DNA from: a virus
DNA: 24,932 bases
IMG/VR virus record: IMGVR_UViG_3300021425_000182
Coordinates: 1-24,932 of that record
Direction: 5' to 3' (one strand)
The number at the start of each line of letters is the position of its first letter. Positions within the stretch are counted from its first letter, which is position 1. The position numbers and the translations under genes are program-made. The notes under the pieces were generated by a model, which saw nothing but the letters and a program-made list of their open reading frames with translations, had not been told where the DNA came from and searched no databases. Shown piece after piece: positions 1 to 24,932 of the stretch.

Positions 1-18
1 AAGTTCTCTTTTTTTCAT
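1..18 (-). CDS. 5' end of an off-edge gene starting MKKREL (partial)
   Basis: Only the first six codons (M K K R E L) are inside the window; the ATG is at 18-16 and the gene runs off the left edge. These codons and the 37 bases upstream of them are identical to the 5' end and leader of the 143-residue gene that starts at 1160. The gene is therefore probably a second copy or a chimaeric relative of that gene, placed after another terminator. Function unknown. Only the start is seen; how far the similarity continues cannot be judged. Confidence 0.5.
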
Positions 19-33
19 TTTTTTAATTAATTT

Positions 34-55
34 AAAAAAAGGGCCGAAGCCCTTT
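34..55 (-). terminator. Intrinsic terminator (UUCG tetraloop) after the 163-residue gene
   Basis: On the minus strand AAAGGGC-TTCG-GCCC is followed by a run of seven T. The stem is GGGC/GCCC, extended by A-T pairs, and the loop is the very stable UUCG tetraloop closed by C-G. It lies about 24 bases after the stop codon at 79-81. The A-run on the other flank makes it potentially bidirectional. The same hairpin recurs at 699-721 and 1176-1198. Confidence 0.9.
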
Positions 56-78
56 GGTTTGTTTTTAAGAGTTCATTA

Positions 79-570
79 TTATTTTTCAGTGAAGTAGTTT
101 TTGCTACTTGGGAACATTTGATATGCTCCTGTATACATTCCCATCATACCGCTACCGCTACCAGCATTGAAGCAAACCCATGCAGGAAGCTCTTGCCATT
201 CAACTTTTAAACCTTTTTTTGAATAGGTAGATTCTTTCTTAGCAAGACCCACAAAACGGCCAAACTTGTCGGCATGGTCATCATTAACTATCCAGCATAA
301 GCCATATTTGCCTTGAATTATTTTCTTTGAGACAATGTCATTTGTCTCAACATCTACCAAGACTTCAAATTTTGATAAGCCGCCATTTTGTAATATTTCC
401 AGTTTTAGCTTGGCCTCAGTTATAGCGTGTTGATTAGATCTTTCACTAATAAAACAATCATCTACATCTGTTAGTCCTTGTTCAATTCTCTTTCTACGAT
501 CCATCATAATCTTAGTGTAATGATCTATGGTGTCTAACTGCTGCTTGATTCTCTTTTGTCCGATATTCAT
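79..570 (-). CDS. Hypothetical accessory protein, 163 residues
   Basis: I do not recognise the family. The first 60 residues are charged and probably helical (KRIKQQLDTIDHYTKIMMDRRKR), followed by a mixed region with several aromatic residues. The C-terminal part is Gly/Ser/Met-rich (GSGSGMMGMYTGAY). No signal peptide or membrane segment is seen, so it is probably cytoplasmic. Its upstream region (576-692) is a near copy of the one before the 61-residue gene at 1391, and a UUCG terminator follows, so it sits in the first slot of a repeated module. Ten bases matching the 3' end of the neighbouring 143-residue gene (65-74) lie just beyond its stop, out of frame, as if a different ORF had replaced an earlier one between conserved flanks. 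The ATG at 570 is about 6 bases from the end of the upstream repeat. Confidence 0.75.
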   Translation of the reverse strand: MNIGQKRIKQQLDTIDHYTKIMMDRRKRIEQGLTDVDDCFISERSNQHAITEAKLKLEILQNGGLSKFEVLVDVETNDIVSKKIIQGKYGLCWIVNDDHADKFGRFVGLAKKESTYSKKGLKVEWQELPAWVCFNAGSGSGMMGMYTGAYQMFPSSKNYFTEK

Positions 571-575
571 AATTT

Positions 576-692
576 ATGTTTTAAATGTTTGATTAATAAT
601 TATACTGCAATATACACATATATCTTGTATATACAAAGCATATAGAAAGTATATAGAAAATATATACTCTAATTAAAAGAAGTCTAAATAAG
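576..692 (-). repeat. Upstream control repeat, left copy (117 bp)
   Basis: Near-identical to 1390-1495, differing by a few substitutions and one extra 11-bp unit here. It ends about 6 bases from the start codon of the 163-residue gene. The far end (CTTATTTAGACTTCTT on the minus strand) matches the last codons and stop region of the metallophosphoesterase at 1487, so the duplicated segment originally included the end of that gene. The position immediately upstream of two different ORFs points to a promoter or operator region. I see no exact TAnnTTTG element in it. Confidence 0.85.
627..659 (-). promoter_or_regulatory. Three tandem 11-bp AT-rich iterons (possible operator)
   Basis: On the plus strand the units are GTATATACAAA (627-637), GCATATAGAAA (638-648) and GTATATAGAAA (649-659), followed by a partial unit. 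The 11-bp period is about one helical turn, so a bound protein would meet the same DNA face each time. The right-hand copy of this control region has only two units. Binding by a phage or host regulator is inference; only the repeats are seen. Confidence 0.6.
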
Positions 693-698
693 TGTATT

Positions 699-721
699 AA
701 AAAAAGGGCCGAAGCCCTTTT
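699..721 (-). terminator. Intrinsic terminator (UUCG tetraloop) after the 143-residue gene
   Basis: GGGC-TTCG-GCCC stem-loop (706-717) on the minus strand followed by seven T, 8 bases after the stop codon of the 143-residue gene. Same core as at 34-55 and 1176-1198. It separates the first module from the second control repeat at 576-692. Confidence 0.9.
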
Positions 722-728
722 GTTGTTT

Positions 729-1160
729 TTAAGAGTTTACGATTTTAAAATCTTTAGTATTGTGATACCTTAACTCTTTTGAGAGAAATGTGTTTTCAGA
801 TTTCTCGAAATCATATCCGACCACGTCACACCCTTTGTTTTCGTCATAAATCCAATACTTACTAACTTCAATTAGGATTTCATATTTGTTGCCTAAAGTA
901 TCATGAACTATAAAGCCATCATTTCTTAGGGCTTCAATTATTTCGTCCTTATCATCAGCATACCATAATGAACCATTGTCATTATACTTTTCACCATATA
1001 ATGGTGATTGAGGTATTTTGTAAGTAGCTTGATACTCCCCGTGAACTGATACGTAATGTTGACACCACTCGCCAGCTTTATTTTTAACTAATCTATTGAG
1101 TAGCTGAACTTTTCTTCCTAAAGTTTTCTCTACAATCTTAGTAAGTTCTCTTTTTTTCAT
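729..1160 (-). CDS. Hypothetical accessory protein, 143 residues (MKKREL family)
   Basis: Family not recognised. The N-terminus is basic (MKKRELTKIVEKTLGRKVQ); the middle and C-terminus are rich in Tyr, Trp, Asp and Lys (GSLWYADDKDEIIEAL, YWIYDENKGCDVVGYD). It looks like a small globular cytoplasmic protein without signal peptide or membrane segment. The ATG at 1160 follows the terminator at 1176-1198 by about 16 bases, with no obvious promoter between, so expression may depend on read-through. Its first six codons and leader are repeated exactly at 1-55. Its 3' end (AACTCTTAA) is almost the same as that of the 61-residue gene (AATTCTTAA), so only the interior differs between cassettes. Confidence 0.75.
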   Translation of the reverse strand: MKKRELTKIVEKTLGRKVQLLNRLVKNKAGEWCQHYVSVHGEYQATYKIPQSPLYGEKYNDNGSLWYADDKDEIIEALRNDGFIVHDTLGNKYEILIEVSKYWIYDENKGCDVVGYDFEKSENTFLSKELRYHNTKDFKIVNS

Positions 1161-1197
1161 TTTTTTAATTAATTTAAAAAAAGGGCCGAAGCCCTTT
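1143..1197 (-). repeat. Direct repeat, right copy: terminator, leader and MKKREL gene start
   Basis: Identical over 55 bases to 1-55. It contains the terminator after the 61-residue gene plus the leader and first six codons of the 143-residue gene. Confidence 0.9.
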
Positions 1198-1198
1198 T
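1176..1198 (-). terminator. Intrinsic terminator (UUCG tetraloop) after the 61-residue gene
   Basis: GGGC-TTCG-GCCC hairpin (1183-1194) on the minus strand with seven T after it, 8 bases beyond the stop codon of the 61-residue gene and just before the 143-residue gene. It may attenuate transcription into that gene. Confidence 0.9.
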
Positions 1199-1205
1199 CT
1201 TGTTT

Positions 1206-1391
1206 TTAAGAATTTGCTGCCTCTTCGTGTTGCTCAAAACTTCTGTATCCAGTTCGTGCATACAATATGCTTTTTAATGATTCAAGACTATGGCCGTTGA
1301 TACAACACACAAGGTGAATTTCTAACTCTGTAGCAATTCTGAAGTATTCTAAGTATTCACAAGCTTCGTAAAATTTTATTTCTTCTTTCAT
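1206..1391 (-). CDS. Small hypothetical accessory protein, 61 residues
   Basis: A short acidic protein of unknown function (MKEEIKFYEACEYLEYFRIA at the N-terminus, a VCCINGH segment near residues 28-34). No motif I can name. Coding is supported by its precise placement: the start codon coincides with the end of the control repeat 1390-1495 and the stop lies 8 bases before a UUCG terminator. It occupies the same slot in its module as the 163-residue gene does in the other, yet the two sequences look unrelated. The 3' end AATTCTTAA resembles that of the 143-residue gene. Confidence 0.65.
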   Translation of the reverse strand: MKEEIKFYEACEYLEYFRIATELEIHLVCCINGHSLESLKSILYARTGYRSFEQHEEAANS

Positions 1392-1495
1392 GTTTTAAAT
1401 GTTTAATTAATAATTATACTGCAATATATACATATATCTTGTATATACAAAGCATATAGAAAATATATACCTTAATTATAAGAAGTCTAAATAAG
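1390..1495 (-). repeat. Upstream control repeat, right copy (106 bp)
   Basis: Near copy of 576-692, with two instead of three 11-bp units (1441-1451 and 1452-1462). It runs from the start codon of the 61-residue gene back into the stop codon of the metallophosphoesterase at 1487-1489. It presumably drives or regulates the 61-residue gene. Confidence 0.85.
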
Positions 1496-2788
1496 AATAG
1501 GCTTATAATGTAGATAGTAATCCGTGTGTGCCACTTCGCTTGATCCCTTATCCACAATGTCTATGGCAAATGAGCTTTTACTATTCCCGAAGTTGTGGCC
1601 TATATAATTAGACGGTGGACTAAATGCCCCAAAGTTTCTATAATCAAACTTCATTGGCCTTGCATCATATCCTATGCAATGTAGGTCGCCCTTATGAACG
1701 TGTAAATAAGGTGCATCTATTTTATAGTGATCTATGACATCAGATATCAAGACAATTGTTCTATCATTTAATGTGTACGGTAATGGTGCTTTCATGAACT
1801 TCTCATCTTTGCCATGCGTAAGTAAAAAGCCGTGATCCCCATAATATCTGGCCTCAATGAATTTTGTTAATATGTCTACTTCTGCAATTTCATTATCATA
1901 AACCGTATTTACTAAAGTTTGCAAAGCAATAGCTATAGATTTCTCAAACTCGCTAGAATGGTTCGCATTACTTACCGTTCTGAATACTACCTTTCTTGCA
2001 ACACCCTTATCTATTAAATTTTCTAACAGATCCCATTTTGTAAGCAGGCAAGTTTTAAACACCTCTGAATTACTCATGTTCTGCGTAAGCTCATGGCCGC
2101 CTCTTGTAGTCTTCTTATCCCATCCGTCTTGCCCATCGCCTAAGTTATCGATATAAAGCACATCAAAAGTACCATGTGTTCTGAACTCCTTCATAACGGC
2201 CTCAAATACCTTCCCCATGCTGTTTGTATAAGCATCGGCATTATATTCATAGCTGAACAATGAATCTTTGTCTATAGCCATGCCTACGTGCTCATCTGTC
2301 ATCGTTACTATGCAAGCCTTATCAGTAGCCTTTTTATTTACCTTTAGTTGTTTCTTTTGCGTCCCCATTAGCTCCCTGCAAGTTTCTTCAAAAACGCTTG
2401 ATAGTTCACTAATTAGTAAACTATTTTGATCAGGCATCAAAGTTACATTCTGCCCACCGTGATATAGCTGTGTAACCTTCTTTATCTTCATTCCAGACAC
2501 ATCAACATTTAGGCCGCTTCTAAGGCTTTCTGTTGTCTTAACGACCTCACCAGCCTTATTTCTTTCTATCCTTGTTTCTACAAGGCTTTGAGTTGTATAT
2601 ATACCCGAAGTGCGCCCCCTTTCTATATGTCTTCGTAATCCGTTGAAATTAGCCCCATCTAATTCAGCTGGATATTGCTTAAATATAAGCCGTGCAATTT
2701 CGCTTGGCCTGTAGCCTATCGCATCTAAATAGTGTTGTATATCGTCCTTAAACTTAATCCATTCCGTCTGCTTTTTTAAATTGTGCAT
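1487..2788 (-). CDS. Calcineurin-like metallophosphoesterase with HTH-like N-terminus
   Basis: 433 residues. The C-terminal two thirds carry metallophosphoesterase-type motifs in order: DEHVG (165-169), GDGQDGWD (217-224), ANHSSE (275-280, in the place of the usual GNH(D/E)), THG (324-326) and the terminal HVHKGDLH (363-370). In this superfamily these Asp, Asn and His residues bind two metal ions and catalyse phosphoester hydrolysis. Residues about 10-55 (IGYRPSEIARLIFKQYP) look like a helix-turn-helix, suggesting DNA contact. Substrate unknown; a DNA end-processing or packaging-related role is inference. The gene follows the endopeptidase gene after a 33-base gap. It is the last recognisable gene before the cassette zone, and its stop codon lies inside the control repeat. 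Confident about the fold, not about the role. Confidence 0.82.
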   Translation of the reverse strand: MHNLKKQTEWIKFKDDIQHYLDAIGYRPSEIARLIFKQYPAELDGANFNGLRRHIERGRTSGIYTTQSLVETRIERNKAGEVVKTTESLRSGLNVDVSGMKIKKVTQLYHGGQNVTLMPDQNSLLISELSSVFEETCRELMGTQKKQLKVNKKATDKACIVTMTDEHVGMAIDKDSLFSYEYNADAYTNSMGKVFEAVMKEFRTHGTFDVLYIDNLGDGQDGWDKKTTRGGHELTQNMSNSEVFKTCLLTKWDLLENLIDKGVARKVVFRTVSNANHSSEFEKSIAIALQTLVNTVYDNEIAEVDILTKFIEARYYGDHGFLLTHGKDEKFMKAPLPYTLNDRTIVLISDVIDHYKIDAPYLHVHKGDLHCIGYDARPMKFDYRNFGAFSPPSNYIGHNFGNSKSSFAIDIVDKGSSEVAHTDYYLHYKPILI

Positions 2789-3235: not shown

Positions 3236-3621
3236 TTCATCATGTTAGCCTTAAACCTGTAGTAATTCTGTAGCTTGCTGATATCTATTTCAAGCAATGC
3301 AGCCTCCAAGATATCATATTGATATTTAGTGATTCTTTCTTTCTTTAGATCCTTATTTAATGCCTTTAGTTCTTTCCGTTTTTTCTTACTGGCTTTTATC
3401 TTCACAATAGGTTCAGGACTGTTAGATGGATCTTTAGCTATCACCGTTGACACAATCTTGACTATATCACCGATCATCGCTTGTGGCAACACCTCCAAAC
3501 TATCTTTCTTAATAGCTTCCTGTGCTGAAACCTTACAGGTAAATAGGCAAGTAGCAAGCAGGACAAGCCAAGCTATTAAAACGGCCTTTTCTGATTTCCC
3601 TAAATATCTAAATTCTTTCAT
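3232..3621 (-). CDS. Small membrane-anchored or exported basic protein, lysis-region accessory
   Basis: 129 residues. Residues 13-29 (AVLIAWLVLLATCLFTC) form a hydrophobic segment preceded by positive charge. VSA-Q at 31-34 could be a signal-peptidase site, or the cysteines at 25/29 a poor lipobox. The rest is Lys-rich and helical (KASKKKRKELKALNKDLKKER, about 76-96). Topology and position between a protease and an endopeptidase would suit a spanin-like or lysis-regulating protein, but there is no family match I can name. It overlaps both neighbours by 4 bases (ATGA). Confidence 0.7.
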   Translation of the reverse strand: MKEFRYLGKSEKAVLIAWLVLLATCLFTCKVSAQEAIKKDSLEVLPQAMIGDIVKIVSTVIAKDPSNSPEPIVKIKASKKKRKELKALNKDLKKERITKYQYDILEAALLEIDISKLQNYYRFKANMMK

Positions 3622-4496
3622 ATGTTCTTAATTGCTTCTTTAAGTGTGGTCAATAACTTTTCTTTACTATCCGTAGGATTTACATCAATAGAAAGCCATC
3701 CAAGGCATATTAATAATTGTTGCTTTGTTGCCCTGTTGATATAAATGCTGTTTAAAAAGTAGTGTGATAAAAACCGCTTTAGCTCAACATTTACATTTAC
3801 CTCTGGCTCATCTGGATAAGGATACTGAGCCGCAGCAAAGGCTTTATCAGTTTCGCTTAACACCTTGTTTTGTGGCATTCCAACACCGTTTAAAGTCAAA
3901 TCAGCATCAAAGAAATATGCCATTATGCTATTCTTATCCAAAGGTGTTGCGCTAATGCCTTCCGTGCTTAACACATTTAAAATATTGTGGTCTATTGTCT
4001 TTTTGTCCCAAAAGTTAGGCGCACCGCCAAACCTTTTATATACCTTTTCCTTATCCCATTGAATCGGCTCATAGGGGTTTTGGTGTTCGTGTGGCATTGC
4101 CAAAGCACCATGCCCAAATTCATGTAAAATTGTGCTATGATCATTTGTAAGCATATCCTGCGCCAACCATCCAAAATTCATTGTTGCTTGGCCTCGTCTT
4201 ACATATGTGCTATCTGTGCCAAGATATGACCATGATCCTAAATTAGGGTTAGCAGTAATCCTAATGTTTGCCGTATCAAATCCGTCTATTACCTTAAACT
4301 TTAAGTTTGCATACTTCAACCATTCTGAAGCAGCATTCATTACAAAGTCTTTTTCTTTTTGCGAAAAGTCTTTAAACTGAATTGTGATTGTTTCGCCTGT
4401 AGTATACTTTTTATTGATATATACTATTCCCTCCATCGCCATAGCGTAAACGCCTTTAGGCTTCTCCAATTGAGGTACATAACATATTTTACACAT
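3618..4496 (-). CDS. Metzincin (astacin-like) zinc metalloprotease
   Basis: 292 residues. The zinc site is HEFGH (125-129) followed by GALAMPHEHQNP with the third His at 136. The Met-turn SIMAY is at 190-194. A reprolysin/astacin-like N-terminal half (SEWLKYANLKFKV, ANIRITANPNLGSWSYLG) precedes them. In standard astacins the motif is HExxHxxGxxH; here there is one extra residue before the third His and the glycine is lost. Residues 1-20 include a CxxC (CKIC) and no clear signal peptide. The C-terminal 60 residues after the catalytic domain look like a small helical domain. Substrate unknown: host surface protein, virion protein or lysis function are all possible. A terminator sits just upstream (4509-4534), so its own promoter or read-through is needed. 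4-base overlap with the next gene. Confidence 0.82.
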   Translation of the reverse strand: MCKICYVPQLEKPKGVYAMAMEGIVYINKKYTTGETITIQFKDFSQKEKDFVMNAASEWLKYANLKFKVIDGFDTANIRITANPNLGSWSYLGTDSTYVRRGQATMNFGWLAQDMLTNDHSTILHEFGHGALAMPHEHQNPYEPIQWDKEKVYKRFGGAPNFWDKKTIDHNILNVLSTEGISATPLDKNSIMAYFFDADLTLNGVGMPQNKVLSETDKAFAAAQYPYPDEPEVNVNVELKRFLSHYFLNSIYINRATKQQLLICLGWLSIDVNPTDSKEKLLTTLKEAIKNI

Positions 4497-6047: not shown

Positions 6048-7964
6048 TTATGTTTTCTTTAATGTCCCCGAAAAGTAACCTTGACCTGTGCTATATGTTT
6101 GTGTTACTGCTTGCGAAAAGTAAATCTCTATATAATCACCATTTGAAACACTTACCCCACCGCTTACGCCAGTAGGCTGATATGTGCTTGCCCTTGATGA
6201 ATCATTATTTAATGTACCTCCTGAAATGTTAACAGTACTACCATTTTTTCTAATCACTACGCCCCCTTGACCTGAACCCGAAGCATTATTTAAATAGGGA
6301 ACATTGTAATTAAATAGAAAATGTCCCGATGTACTAAACTCTATTCTATCCGTCACCAAATCAACTGTCATGCCGCCTCCATTAATCGTTACACCGCTGA
6401 TATTCATTTGTCTAAATCCTGTACCAGATATTAATGAACTTGTTCTACCATAAATAATCGTAGGTGCTGCACTTGATGTTGTTATTATCTTACCATCTGA
6501 TTGCACGGATAAATTATATGCCTCTGATCCTGACTTGCCAGAACCGTATCCACTTAGATAAACATCTGTTGTTGCCCTTGGAATCATTATTGCGTCAACA
6601 TCAGTTGTTGAGCTATAACTACCAATGTAAACCCTATTTGGCCCACCATCATACTTTAGATATCCCCCAAAAGATTGCGCAATACCTTCATTTAATCTTA
6701 AAAAAGTTGTACCTCCATTATTACTGTGAAAATATGTGTTATTATCTCCTGTATTTTCAGCAAAATTAAGTTCAAAGCCGTTATATGTTACAGTTCTATC
6801 ACTTGTCAAAGTGCCGTTGGTGTTATATATGTTACTTATGCCACCGCCTGAAACTTCAAAATCAAAATGATTGCCTACATCATCATAAGTTACAATTATA
6901 CCTGTTTCCGTGTTGCCGCTAACCATTGAGCCGACAAAGTCTTGCACCTGTTCTTGTGATAAATTAGTGTTGTCTAAATAACCTTCTAAACTTTGAGTAT
7001 ATATAGCAGCATCATTTGATAAACTAATCTCTAAATTATTTCCAGAAAGTCCAAAAACGTCAATAGTTTGCAATTCATTAGATGTACTATTATCAGTAGC
7101 AACAAAATCAAATTCATCATTATCATCGTCATAAGTCACGCTGATACCGCTTTCTGTATTACCTGTAACCATTGAACCTACATAATCTTGCACTTGCTCT
7201 TGTGATAGATTTGTATTATCCAAATAACCACTCAAATCTACCGTAGATGCATCATTAGTTAAACTCAAGGTGTTACCAGTTAAGCTTAGATCCTGTATTT
7301 CATTAGAGCTATCATTATCGTTATCAGCAATGTTAAATGTTGTATTAGTACCTCCACTAATTGTAATAGTTCTATCAGTACCATTAGCACTACTACCTAA
7401 ATCCTGCGCATCTGTATTATCCAAATAACCACTCAAATCTACAGTAGTACCGTCATTAGTCAAACTCAATGTGTTGCCAGTTAAGCTTAAATCTTGTGCG
7501 TCTGTATTATCCAAATAACCACTTAAATCTACTGTAGTAGCATCATTAGTTAGGCTTAAAGTATTACCGCTCAAGCTTAAATCTTGCGCATCTGCATTAT
7601 CTAAGTAGCTACTTAAATCAACAAAGCCCCCATTTTCTATTGTCAACAAATTACCGTCTAAGCTGATAGTTTGATTGTCTGTGCCAGTTGCAACATTTTG
7701 AATTCCGCTGACATAGTATTCTACTGTATCTATTTGCGCACCGATTTTAACCGATAACTTATGGTCATCATTGCCTAATGTTCTACCAACAATTGTATCA
7801 ATGTCTATAGCACTATTTATGTGTATATGCTGATATCTTCCAGCTATATTACTAAGCAAAATAGAGCTAATAGTATCTGCATCCTGCAACTGCCTTGGCT
7901 TAATGCCTTGCCCCTGTAATGAATAAGCTACTATTAAAAATATTACCGCAAATAAATACTTCAT
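6048..7964 (-). CDS. Tail fibre/adhesin with signal peptide, repeats and C1q-like tip
   Basis: 638 residues. It begins with a typical signal peptide (1-19, cleavage around LQGQ-G). Residues about 96-333 hold at least five related units of about 29 residues with core NTLSLTND..TVDLSGYLDN. An inserted pair of LSQEQVQD(Y/F)VGSMV segments (about 253-266 and 335-348) is each followed by a V(T)YDD beta segment. Residues 379-401 (IYNTNGTLTSDR..) match a module in the 482-residue neighbour. The last 110 residues (FSTSGHFLFNYNVPY, IRKNGSTVN, GDYIEIYFSQA) resemble a C1q/TNF-like jelly roll, a likely receptor-binding tip. Trimeric fibre function is inferred from these modules. The signal peptide is odd for a virion protein. 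Four bases separate it from the next upstream gene. Confidence 0.8.
   Translation of the reverse strand: MKYLFAVIFLIVAYSLQGQGIKPRQLQDADTISSILLSNIAGRYQHIHINSAIDIDTIVGRTLGNDDHKLSVKIGAQIDTVEYYVSGIQNVATGTDNQTISLDGNLLTIENGGFVDLSSYLDNADAQDLSLSGNTLSLTNDATTVDLSGYLDNTDAQDLSLTGNTLSLTNDGTTVDLSGYLDNTDAQDLGSSANGTDRTITISGGTNTTFNIADNDNDSSNEIQDLSLTGNTLSLTNDASTVDLSGYLDNTNLSQEQVQDYVGSMVTGNTESGISVTYDDDNDEFDFVATDNSTSNELQTIDVFGLSGNNLEISLSNDAAIYTQSLEGYLDNTNLSQEQVQDFVGSMVSGNTETGIIVTYDDVGNHFDFEVSGGGISNIYNTNGTLTSDRTVTYNGFELNFAENTGDNNTYFHSNNGGTTFLRLNEGIAQSFGGYLKYDGGPNRVYIGSYSSTTDVDAIMIPRATTDVYLSGYGSGKSGSEAYNLSVQSDGKIITTSSAAPTIIYGRTSSLISGTGFRQMNISGVTINGGGMTVDLVTDRIEFSTSGHFLFNYNVPYLNNASGSGQGGVVIRKNGSTVNISGGTLNNDSSRASTYQPTGVSGGVSVSNGDYIEIYFSQAVTQTYSTGQGYFSGTLKKT
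6966..7679 (-). repeat. Coding tandem repeats (about 87-90 bp) in the fibre gene
   Basis: Successive units encode ..L(T/S)GNTLSLTND(A/G)(T/S)TVDLSGYLDN(T/A)DAQD. Three units run almost back to back (about residues 96-186), a fourth follows at about 224-252 and a diverged fifth at about 300-333. Near-identical DNA stretches (such as GTATTATCCAAATAACCACT on the plus strand) recur. These could shorten or lengthen the fibre shaft by recombination. Confidence 0.8.
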
Positions 7965-10490: not shown

Positions 10491-13261
10491 AAGATGAACC
10501 ATGTAAAAAAAATTGGTGTTCCTGCCTCTATTTCACGCCCTAAATTGATTTGCAAATTTACAAAATCTATGCTAAAGTGTTCTGGCCTTGTAGGTGTGGC
10601 ATTATAAACATAGTTGCCACTCGCCCGAAGGCTTCCAATGAACATTGCAATCATTTCTGTAGTTGTGTAAATACTTGGATCTGGCAATCTATAACCAGTT
10701 GTAGGCAGCGTAATTGTAGACCCTGCAAAAGTATCTGTATAGTAGTAATACCTTTCTAAAGTGCCGCCTCCTGTTTCTTCTGTCACCGTGCTTACTGTTG
10801 CAGTTGTGCCACCTCCATTATTTGACGCACCGTTTAATGTCTTACTATTATCACTTTCAGCACCAGCATTTTTTATGTAGGTAATAGAGTTCATTCTTTC
10901 ATAGAATGCACTTATTCTATACTCGCACCATTGGCCAGCAATTCTATTATATACGCTGTTCCATGTACCTGAAACCATCATATAGACCGTTGTTCCATCT
11001 GGTGTAGTATGGCCTAAGAATTGATCTGATACCCGATATTCATGGTTTATAATCTCCATCGGCTTTGCTACCCTGTTGGCAAGCAGTTGAGTGATAGCCA
11101 TTTGCCGACTCCTGCCACCATAACTATTAGGCTGCACCCATTCAGAACCGTCATAAACCCTTAATGCGCCTCCATCATTTTCTATTATTGTATTATCGCT
11201 AAACCTTGTCTTAAAGCTATACGTTTCGCTATTATTCTCACTATACACTTTCGTGCATACGCTATCGGTGTAATACTTGTCATCCTCGGCACGATCTAAA
11301 GTCGTTAGCTGTATACTATCAATTGACCATTGCAAGGCCGTTAGAACCGTTTCTGTATACTCTGTTTGACTTACATTCACATAAGTTCTATCATACTCCA
11401 TGCCTACTTCAACATCTCCTGTATATGCTAAAGCTGGCAAATCAAATGATACTTCGATAATATGTTCTTTGATTCCATCCGATTGTAAAGGGCCGTGAAT
11501 ATCAATCTTGTTAGAACTATCTGCACTATATTCAGGCAGGCTATAAATCGCTACTGCTTGCTTTGCTTCGTTCAAATTTTCAATCTTCAAGTAATCGCTG
11601 CCAAGCTTTAACACACCTAAAAATGCATGAAGGAATTTAGCCCCCGAATTTGCTAATGTAATTAGTGCTGCTGGCTTTATAACTGTACCTATCCTTATAA
11701 CGATCTTTAGTCTATGCTCACGATCTGGCAAGTTCGCATTCTTAATAGTGTATAGTTGTCCATATGTATCCGTAGGAAATTGAGCAGCAGCACCAGCCAA
11801 AACATTTGCCGTTGTCAATCTATCGTAACATAATTCTAAATGCCTTGCAGCTTGCACATATGTATATTGCCCTTTCCCTATACACTCTGGAATGGTGCTA
11901 TTATCGTCATATACATCAAGCGTATTAGTAACCGCTTGTCTAAAATTCATATCCTTATCATATGCATTTCCTGTAGTTCTATCGTTGTAGGGCAAAATGT
12001 AATATTTACCATTTCGATATTCCACGCTTCCTGCACATTGTATAGCAATTTCCTTTAATGCATCATAACAACTTATAGCCGTTGGTGGATTGCTTGTATA
12101 ATCTGTTATAAATCCGTTATAAGGAATGCCGTTATAGTCTTCACCTTTTGCTGCCCCTTGATTTGTTTCTGCTTCAGGGACATTAACTACTATAACATCC
12201 GTGCCGCTTGGATATTCATTAATCGTAGGTAGTTGACTAAATATATTTCCAATGTGATCTTTAAAAGAAGCATATACATTATCTATGCTTACAGGTGCAT
12301 CAATTACATTTTCAAAATATGATGATTCCTCTACGGTGTATTCTATATAGCTATTATTATATGACCACGTAAGTTTGCAAAATACAGTTTCACCGTCTAA
12401 AACTTCTACGCTTTCTGCTTCTATGCTTGCCGTAACCCTCTTACTACTTATAGCATTACTGGTGTTGTCACCCACTATAAATCGTAAATCTTGTGGATCT
12501 GCAAGTTGCACGGTAGAACCGTGAATATCAATTTTATATAGGCTTAATTGCAATAAAAAGCCTTGTGAAGTCATAGCAAGTACAAAGGCTGGTGTGATTC
12601 CATTCGCATTTATATAAGCACTCGCATCACCAATAATTGAAACGTAGGCTTTGAAGTCATACCTCCCAACCTTATCAAATGCCCCTGTAATAAAATCAAA
12701 GCCACTTGTGAAGTTATGTACGTCTTGTTTCCAAGGTGATCTATCGCCAGTTGCACTTAGATAAACTTGGCTGCTATCTGGCTTTATTCTAAACTTCCCT
12801 AATTGCTGCTGATCTATATAGTCTTGCACTTGTGCCGCCTCATATTGCACATTCTTTAAGTAGCTTAATCCATCTCTGGCCGTTACCTTAAATAATCGCT
12901 TGCCCTCTATAGGTGTTGCATCCATGTAAGTATCATCAATAGACAACATCCCTATAAAATCAATTGCCGCCCTCTTGTATATTTTTACAAAAAATTGCTT
13001 TTCATCGGCTTCTTTTAGATCATCATAAAAATCTAAATGCGCTTGTATAGAAATTATAAATTCAATCTCTAATGTTGTAGGCACTATGAATTGGAATAGC
13101 TCAAGCTCTTCGCCCTCAAATTTCTTTAAGATACCTGAACCGCCATTTGTGCTTATAGCTATTTCTGTACTTGCACCACTAAAATTTATATCATGAATCT
13201 CAACATCATAATCATAATTGTTTAAATAATCCCTATATGTGCTATGTAGCCTTTTAGCCAT
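10487..13261 (-). CDS. Large tail-tip/baseplate hub protein
   Basis: 924 residues, directly after the tape measure, where siphoviruses encode distal-tail and hub proteins. The N-terminal 180 residues (EIHDINFSGASTEIAIS, FFVKIYKRAAIDFIGML, RLFKVTARDGLSYLKN) are beta-rich and similar in style to the hub-type tail proteins of Bacteroidetes phages. The middle is mixed, and the last 120 residues contain a Thr/Gly/Ser linker (NNGGGTTATVSTVTEETGGG) leading to a small C-terminal domain ending FFTWFIL. No signal peptide, unlike the four genes after it. It probably binds the tail end and anchors fibres. Exact structural role not resolved. Confidence 0.75.
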   Translation of the reverse strand: MAKRLHSTYRDYLNNYDYDVEIHDINFSGASTEIAISTNGGSGILKKFEGEELELFQFIVPTTLEIEFIISIQAHLDFYDDLKEADEKQFFVKIYKRAAIDFIGMLSIDDTYMDATPIEGKRLFKVTARDGLSYLKNVQYEAAQVQDYIDQQQLGKFRIKPDSSQVYLSATGDRSPWKQDVHNFTSGFDFITGAFDKVGRYDFKAYVSIIGDASAYINANGITPAFVLAMTSQGFLLQLSLYKIDIHGSTVQLADPQDLRFIVGDNTSNAISSKRVTASIEAESVEVLDGETVFCKLTWSYNNSYIEYTVEESSYFENVIDAPVSIDNVYASFKDHIGNIFSQLPTINEYPSGTDVIVVNVPEAETNQGAAKGEDYNGIPYNGFITDYTSNPPTAISCYDALKEIAIQCAGSVEYRNGKYYILPYNDRTTGNAYDKDMNFRQAVTNTLDVYDDNSTIPECIGKGQYTYVQAARHLELCYDRLTTANVLAGAAAQFPTDTYGQLYTIKNANLPDREHRLKIVIRIGTVIKPAALITLANSGAKFLHAFLGVLKLGSDYLKIENLNEAKQAVAIYSLPEYSADSSNKIDIHGPLQSDGIKEHIIEVSFDLPALAYTGDVEVGMEYDRTYVNVSQTEYTETVLTALQWSIDSIQLTTLDRAEDDKYYTDSVCTKVYSENNSETYSFKTRFSDNTIIENDGGALRVYDGSEWVQPNSYGGRSRQMAITQLLANRVAKPMEIINHEYRVSDQFLGHTTPDGTTVYMMVSGTWNSVYNRIAGQWCEYRISAFYERMNSITYIKNAGAESDNSKTLNGASNNGGGTTATVSTVTEETGGGTLERYYYYTDTFAGSTITLPTTGYRLPDPSIYTTTEMIAMFIGSLRASGNYVYNATPTRPEHFSIDFVNLQINLGREIEAGTPIFFTWFIL

Positions 13262-24799: not shown

Positions 24800-24932
24800 T
24801 AATTTTTAATTTTCACTTTTTTAAAAAACTGCTCCCTACTGAATTGCTTTATCCAAGCCCCATACGGCCTATTATTGTATTTGCAAAATACCTTGACATC
24901 TTTGAGGAACAAATTAAAAGCCTTTTCCGCAA
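24799..24932 (-). CDS. C-terminal fragment of an unknown replication-region protein
   Basis: The last 43 residues of a frame entering from the right edge, including CKYNNRPYGAWIKQF and a basic end (FFKKVKIKN). The TAA at 24801-24799 shares one base with the ATG of the primase-helicase (TAATG), so the two are translationally coupled. The aromatic and basic composition looks coding. Function cannot be judged from this piece. Confidence 0.6.
   Translation of the reverse strand, partial: AEKAFNLFLKDVKVFCKYNNRPYGAWIKQFSREQFFKKVKIKN

Follow-up and report, generated by a model that had tools for sequence, protein, structure and literature searches.

Repeated control and terminator elements point to a probable exchangeable cargo zone beside a phosphoesterase gene in a Bacteroidota-type tailed phage

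The left end of the viral DNA analysed here (IMG/VR record IMGVR_UViG_3300021425_000182, 24,932 nt, hereafter the window) carries small open reading frames framed by repeats. Homology stops at the ATG on one side, restarts at a terminator on the other, and unrelated ORFs lie between. We consider it reasonably probable, with appreciable room for doubt, that this is a cargo zone of repeated expression cassettes beside the phosphoesterase gene of a Bacteroidota-type tailed phage, and that the repeats both drive expression and permit recombination.

Layout of the zone and its repeats

A sequence-only reading of positions 1-1495 had proposed an order of elements along the minus strand, and every element was found where it had been placed. 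The features are as follows, with codon log-odds given for the ORFs and predicted folding energies for the terminators.

1487..2788, minus strand: calcineurin-like phosphoesterase gene, 433 aa; both control repeats open with its final 9 nt
1387..1495, minus strand: control repeat C1, a putative promoter and A-rich leader, reaching the ATG of the 61-aa ORF
1206..1391, minus strand: 61-aa ORF, the first cargo slot; log-odds +0.10
1172..1214, minus strand: terminator T1, GGGC-UUCG-GCCC with U7; -14.2 kcal/mol, z -3.5
729..1160, minus strand: MKKREL ORF, first copy, 143 aa; log-odds +0.24
697..738, minus strand: terminator T2; -11.2 kcal/mol, z -3.1; identical to positions 84-125 of a sister contig, L007
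573..692, minus strand: control repeat C2, a duplicate of C1 with an 11-nt insertion; opens with the last 9 nt of the phosphoesterase gene
79..570, minus strand: 163-aa ORF, the second cargo slot; log-odds +0.18
30..73, minus strand: terminator T3; -10.3 kcal/mol, z -2.5
1..18, minus strand: opening six codons of a second MKKREL gene, truncated where the contig ends; 1-55 identical to 1143-1197

The phosphoesterase protein matches PHROG 704, an exonuclease family (E 6.8e-12), and PHROG 22398 (E 2.7e-29), and its homologues in Cellulophaga phage carry the calcineurin-like annotation. The two control repeats, 803 bp apart, share 103 of 109 aligned bases (six mismatches) in addition to the 11-nt insertion in C2. 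The opening of both, CTTATTTAG, is the 9-nt end of the phosphoesterase gene with its TAG stop codon, which identifies C1 as the native copy and C2 as the duplicate. The end of the phosphoesterase gene is thus part of the duplicated segment, as had been claimed, and the control repeats do end at or close to a start codon, C1 reaching the ATG of the 61-aa ORF. Identity of the 55-nt segments at 1-55 and 1143-1197 was likewise confirmed. The longest exact repeat within positions 1-1495 is 55 nt, compared with at most 17 nt in 1000 dinucleotide shuffles, and the concatenated intergenic pieces contain an exact repeat of 37 nt (again at most 17 nt in shuffles).

The promoter consensus of Bacteroidota, TTTG/TAnnTTTG accompanied by A-rich leaders (PMC6847099), matches C only approximately. 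In a promoter scan C1 and C2 fitted TTTG-N19-TAnnTTTG only with two mismatches, like other AT-rich sites, and this weak match, of a kind common in AT-rich DNA, counts against the cargo-zone interpretation. By inspection, C lacks a T4-type or sigma-70-type promoter. As a candidate operator, TTGTATATACAA is confined to C1 and C2, yet an equally long palindrome occurs in 25% of C1 shuffles, so we do not claim it as such. DNA-pattern scans with the control and terminator sequences found no other contig, and an Rfam search gave no match.

The terminators have in common AAYTCTTAAAAACAA, a GGGC-UUCG-GCCC hairpin and U7. All four occurrences of GGGCTTCGGCCC, three in the window and one in the sister contig, lie within this zone, and the hairpin core is absent elsewhere in both contigs. 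Predicted folding energies of T1-T4, the last of these lying on L007, range from -10.3 to -14.2 kcal/mol (z -2.5 to -3.8). The earlier description of the terminators as starting just past a stop codon holds for T3, which lies 5 nt downstream of the 163-aa ORF, but not for T1 and T2, which include the last two codons and the stop (Asn-Ser-TAA) of the 61-aa and MKKREL ORFs. As the T1/T2 repeat starts within the final codons of the ORF before it, two unrelated proteins have the same ending. C2 begins 4 nt after T2, which creates a terminator-promoter composite, and the whole array across the window and the sister contig comprises two controls and four terminators.

Judged by codon usage, the 61-aa, MKKREL and 163-aa ORFs look like real genes, with in-frame log-odds of +0.10 to +0.24 and negative values in every other frame. 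Their GC contents are 0.339, 0.324 and 0.366, the window as a whole having 0.367. No family in Pfam, PHROGs or PADLOC matches the 61-aa or the MKKREL ORF, and the sole PHROG match of the 163-aa ORF is a weak one to PHROG 5855, of unknown function (E 9.5e-4); PHROGs matches in the zone are limited to weak hits to families of unknown function. None of the three matches a known anti-defence, superinfection or defence family in Pfam or PADLOC, and PDB sequence searches returned marginal matches only. AlphaFold models made with no relatives as input were useless (pLDDT of 36 for MKKREL and 37 for the 163-aa protein), and a GTDB scan with MKKREL gave a single match of 24 residues, judged spurious. 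The cargo might help the phage against hosts or rival phages; an anti-defence role would be a guess.

Between the 61-aa and 163-aa ORFs there is no similarity in DNA or protein, in keeping with the sequence-only reading that the ORFs between the repeats are unrelated. The 803-bp spacing of the controls and the repeated order C-X-T-MKKREL-T, where X is the slot ORF, could also have arisen without the entry of any foreign ORF, if an 803-bp unit was simply duplicated in tandem and the first ORF then decayed or diverged. We regard this as improbable, since the two ORFs share nothing while the repeats that surround them are 94-100% alike, and both ORFs have phage-like codon use. Under the cargo-zone interpretation, the founding unit would have been C-X-T-MKKREL-T, in which C stands for a promoter with its A-rich leader, X for a small ORF that can be exchanged and T for an intrinsic terminator. 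This unit would have been duplicated in tandem, which placed C2, still carrying the final 9 nt of the phosphoesterase gene, 4 nt downstream of T2; each X slot would now hold an ORF unrelated to the other, sharply bounded by C and T. C would drive X, and T1 would limit read-through into MKKREL, the upstream region of which contains a terminator and an A-rich leader and no control repeat of its own. Because MKKREL lies behind T1 without its own promoter, we propose that it is expressed by leakage. A simple expression cassette does not explain this placement, which counts against the interpretation.

Two further features of the window lie outside the zone. A 292-aa ORF (3618-4496, minus strand) with a HEFGH zinc-metalloprotease-like motif and no Pfam or PHROG match adjoins lysis-type genes, and repeats of about 90 nt (7182-7623) lie within a 638-aa ORF that encodes a fibre-like repetitive protein.

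The sister contig and the left end of the array

The window record has no flanks of its own, and the sister contig L007 (IMGVR_UViG_3300021425_000510, 12,891 nt) was found by a search with MKKREL. The right ends of the two contigs coincide over exactly 127 nt (window 24806-24932, L007:12765-12891), which is presumably the overlap that SPAdes leaves at k = 127. Because this overlap is exact, they very likely derive from one assembly of one phage, and are almost certainly pieces of a single genome of about 38 kb. L007:1-125 is identical to the 3′ end of MKKREL plus T2, and L007:1-92 is probably the 3′ end of the second MKKREL gene, of which about 324 nt would be missing if it equals the first copy in length. 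Onward from there, L007 contains T4, a 43-aa Arc-like ribbon-helix-helix gene (Pfam Arc, E 4e-7), small ORFs, an HNH gene, TerS and TerL. The leftward extension that had been advised in search of more modules therefore yielded one additional terminator and the Arc-like gene, and then ordinary packaging genes; since L007 continues into the Arc-like, HNH and terminase genes, the array ends after T4 and is short.

Both contigs break within the second MKKREL. The first 127-mer of L007 ends at position 127, the last base in common with the leader found after T1 and T3, and identity with T2 ends at 125. A contig would be expected to start at this leader divergence point if the assembly graph branched there, in which case a junction of the MKKREL end, T and a T1-type leader would also be present in the sample. 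The contig ends thus hint at an extra, unassembled MKKREL-T-leader junction, chimeric reads or a dead end being the alternatives, and the breaks, one of them exactly at the leader divergence point, suggest population variation. With several variants possibly mixed, the same breaks might be taken to indicate an assembly artefact or chimera, in which modules from different strains were joined through short repeats. This we consider very improbable, since an overlap of exactly 127 nt implies a SPAdes k of 127, and repeats of only 25-55 nt are much too short to mislead such an assembly; moreover, C1 and C2 differ and their flanks are unique.

L007 also contains a 24-nt exact repeat (10610-10633 and 11361-11384) just upstream of the start codons of DNA methylase and helicase genes, a second start-associated repeat in this phage. 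An intergenic stretch of about 500 nt (L007:3910-4420), with several TGTACAC-like repeats and a C-like leader before a 135-aa ORF, is possibly an origin or regulatory region.

Slots beside the phosphoesterase gene in distant relatives

No close relatives were found in IMG/VR (searched with MKKREL, the 163-aa protein and TerL), among GenBank phages, in GTDB or by DNA-pattern scans. A phosphoesterase profile search recovered 80 loci from distant relatives, whose phosphoesterase proteins are 25-38% identical to that of the window. The MKKREL, 61-aa and 163-aa proteins are encoded by none of the 80, and two loci with a distant phosphoesterase, L004 and L005, have no zone in common with the window. 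Downstream of the phosphoesterase gene, several loci have unrelated ORFs with repeats of 40-100 nt running up to their start codons. The clearest group comprises six of the 80 (L021, L037, L039, L077, L080 and L082), which have one promoter-leader segment in common, 97-99% identical to that of L021 in L039, L080 and L082. All six can be seen to carry it, mostly with a TAnnTTTG-type element. The slot ATG (L021, 6542; L037, 6598; L039, 6587; L077, 6440; L080, 6431; L082, 4464) lies 332-344 nt past the phosphoesterase stop codon, and homology stops between -1 and +8 nt from it. The six slot ORFs encode 65-92 aa, with no mutual similarity and no convincing family matches. Homology resumes with one common 3′ border segment in L021, L037 and L080, and L039 and L082 have another, within which lies a GGCTG/CAGCC hairpin followed by T6.

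Among all relatives we counted 83 pairwise slots with unrelated ORFs; in 49, both partners have their left border at the ATG. These counts are only illustrative because the pairs are not independent and ORF-filled gaps were selected. Breakpoints among the relatives cluster at gene borders; as stop and start codons are near neighbours and mosaicism at borders is widespread in phages, we rely on individual slots rather than on these statistics. In the L013-L025 group, the exchanged ORF starts 3-4 nt past the phosphoesterase stop with no promoter between, and promoter repeats are therefore not strictly required for exchange. Of the suggestion that the repeats let the phage swap ORFs, exchange behind a shared promoter has a clear counterpart in the six relatives, where one promoter-leader precedes six unrelated ORFs between homologous flanks, and this phage has the genes for a RecT-family annealing protein, an exonuclease VIII-like protein and SSB; the promoter repeat, on the other hand, is dispensable in the L013-L025 group. 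That ORFs were exchanged there without it counts against the cargo-zone interpretation, as does the fact that exchange is seen only in distant relatives, which have none of this cargo.

The repeats might instead be purely regulatory, with leaders and terminators copied for co-expression, like the start-associated sequences of mycobacteriophages, and with ORF turnover owed not to them but to ordinary illegitimate recombination together with selection where genes meet. Breakpoints at gene borders are seen generally in the relatives, promoterless slots included, and a further start-associated repeat lies ahead of two more genes of the phage (L007:10610 and 11361), which keeps this explanation a serious, if rather unlikely, competitor. 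Homology nevertheless spans the promoter and leader in full, as far as the ATG, duplication extends to the terminators, and a selected regulatory element would not need the phosphoesterase tail that C2 carries. Under the cargo-zone interpretation, C and T would supply an incoming ORF with ready-made expression signals and would also serve RecT, the exonuclease and SSB as homologies of 25-125 nt for the exchange, duplication and deletion of ORFs between co-infecting phages. RecT-type annealing works with short homologies, so repeats of this length would suffice.

A bolder extension, which we offer tentatively and think rather unlikely, is that phages with this phosphoesterase keep an accessory slot beside it and that here units of promoter, cargo, terminator, MKKREL and terminator are gained, lost and refilled by RecT-type annealing, with several unit numbers in one natural population. 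The MKKREL-T-leader junction suggested by the contig end would be a vestige of such turnover. If the cargo-zone interpretation is right, the end of the phosphoesterase gene is a landmark for a one-gene cargo slot in Bacteroidota-type phages, and cloning slot genes would be a cheap way to reach uncharacterised phage genes directed at hosts or rival phages. The six phages of the L021 group, with a shared promoter and unrelated small ORFs, are ready material for such functional screening.

Comparison with known systems

The morons of lambdoid phages are small ORFs with their own promoter and terminator inserted between phage genes (PMC1524935). The C-ORF-T layout of the 61-aa and 163-aa ORFs resembles this, with a weak promoter match, but moron GC is distinct whereas the zone ORFs resemble the rest of the phage; the two cassettes here also share promoter and terminator, and no relative without them is known. 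The SAS of Cluster K mycobacteriophages is 13 bp long. SAS and ESAS repeats lie right at the start codons of unrelated small genes (PMC3203893), as the repeats do here. However, SAS come without terminators, whereas the present repeat is about 110 nt long and terminators belong to the repeat set, and ESAS-type 17-bp inverted repeats lie upstream, whereas the palindrome here is not significant. High gene turnover at a fixed place is known from the variable hotspots of P2 and P4 (PMC9122126), and SegB-driven tandem amplification of anti-defence loci from T6 (PMC13096335). Turnover at a fixed place and tandem gain of units by homologous recombination are likenesses to these systems; the zone differs in its single-gene slots, in matching no known defence or counter-defence family and in having no nuclease shown to act.

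The original studies of PeSLs in T4-like phages are reportedly those of Arbiol (2010) and Comeau (2014). PeSLs, or mobile regulatory cassettes, are described as composite repeats of promoter and stem-loop between small accessory ORFs that are shuffled among relatives (PMC4503421), and similar cassettes have been suggested for the haloarchaeal virus HGTV-1 (PMC3950731). The likeness is that promoter and stem-loop terminator form one repeated motif; here T2 and C2 lie 4 nt apart, the hairpins are stable and the promoter is putative. Variation among relatives of the ORFs between motifs, a PeSL trait, is seen here in distant relatives only. Compared with PeSLs as so described, the present phage is not a T4-like myovirus (its capsid family is PF05065, and its tape-measure and portal families are those of other tailed phages), the putative promoter is of Bacteroidota type, the copies are few and confined to one zone, and the duplication takes in a constant gene, MKKREL, besides the variable slot. 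We do not file the zone as a PeSL, moron or SAS/ESAS member because it departs from each in a defining respect. By analogy, we read the cargo zone as working like the PeSLs of T4-like phages. If this is right, the use of promoter-terminator cassettes as exchange handles extends beyond T4-like phages and one archaeal virus, to another group in which the tracks of duplication are retained in the sequence.
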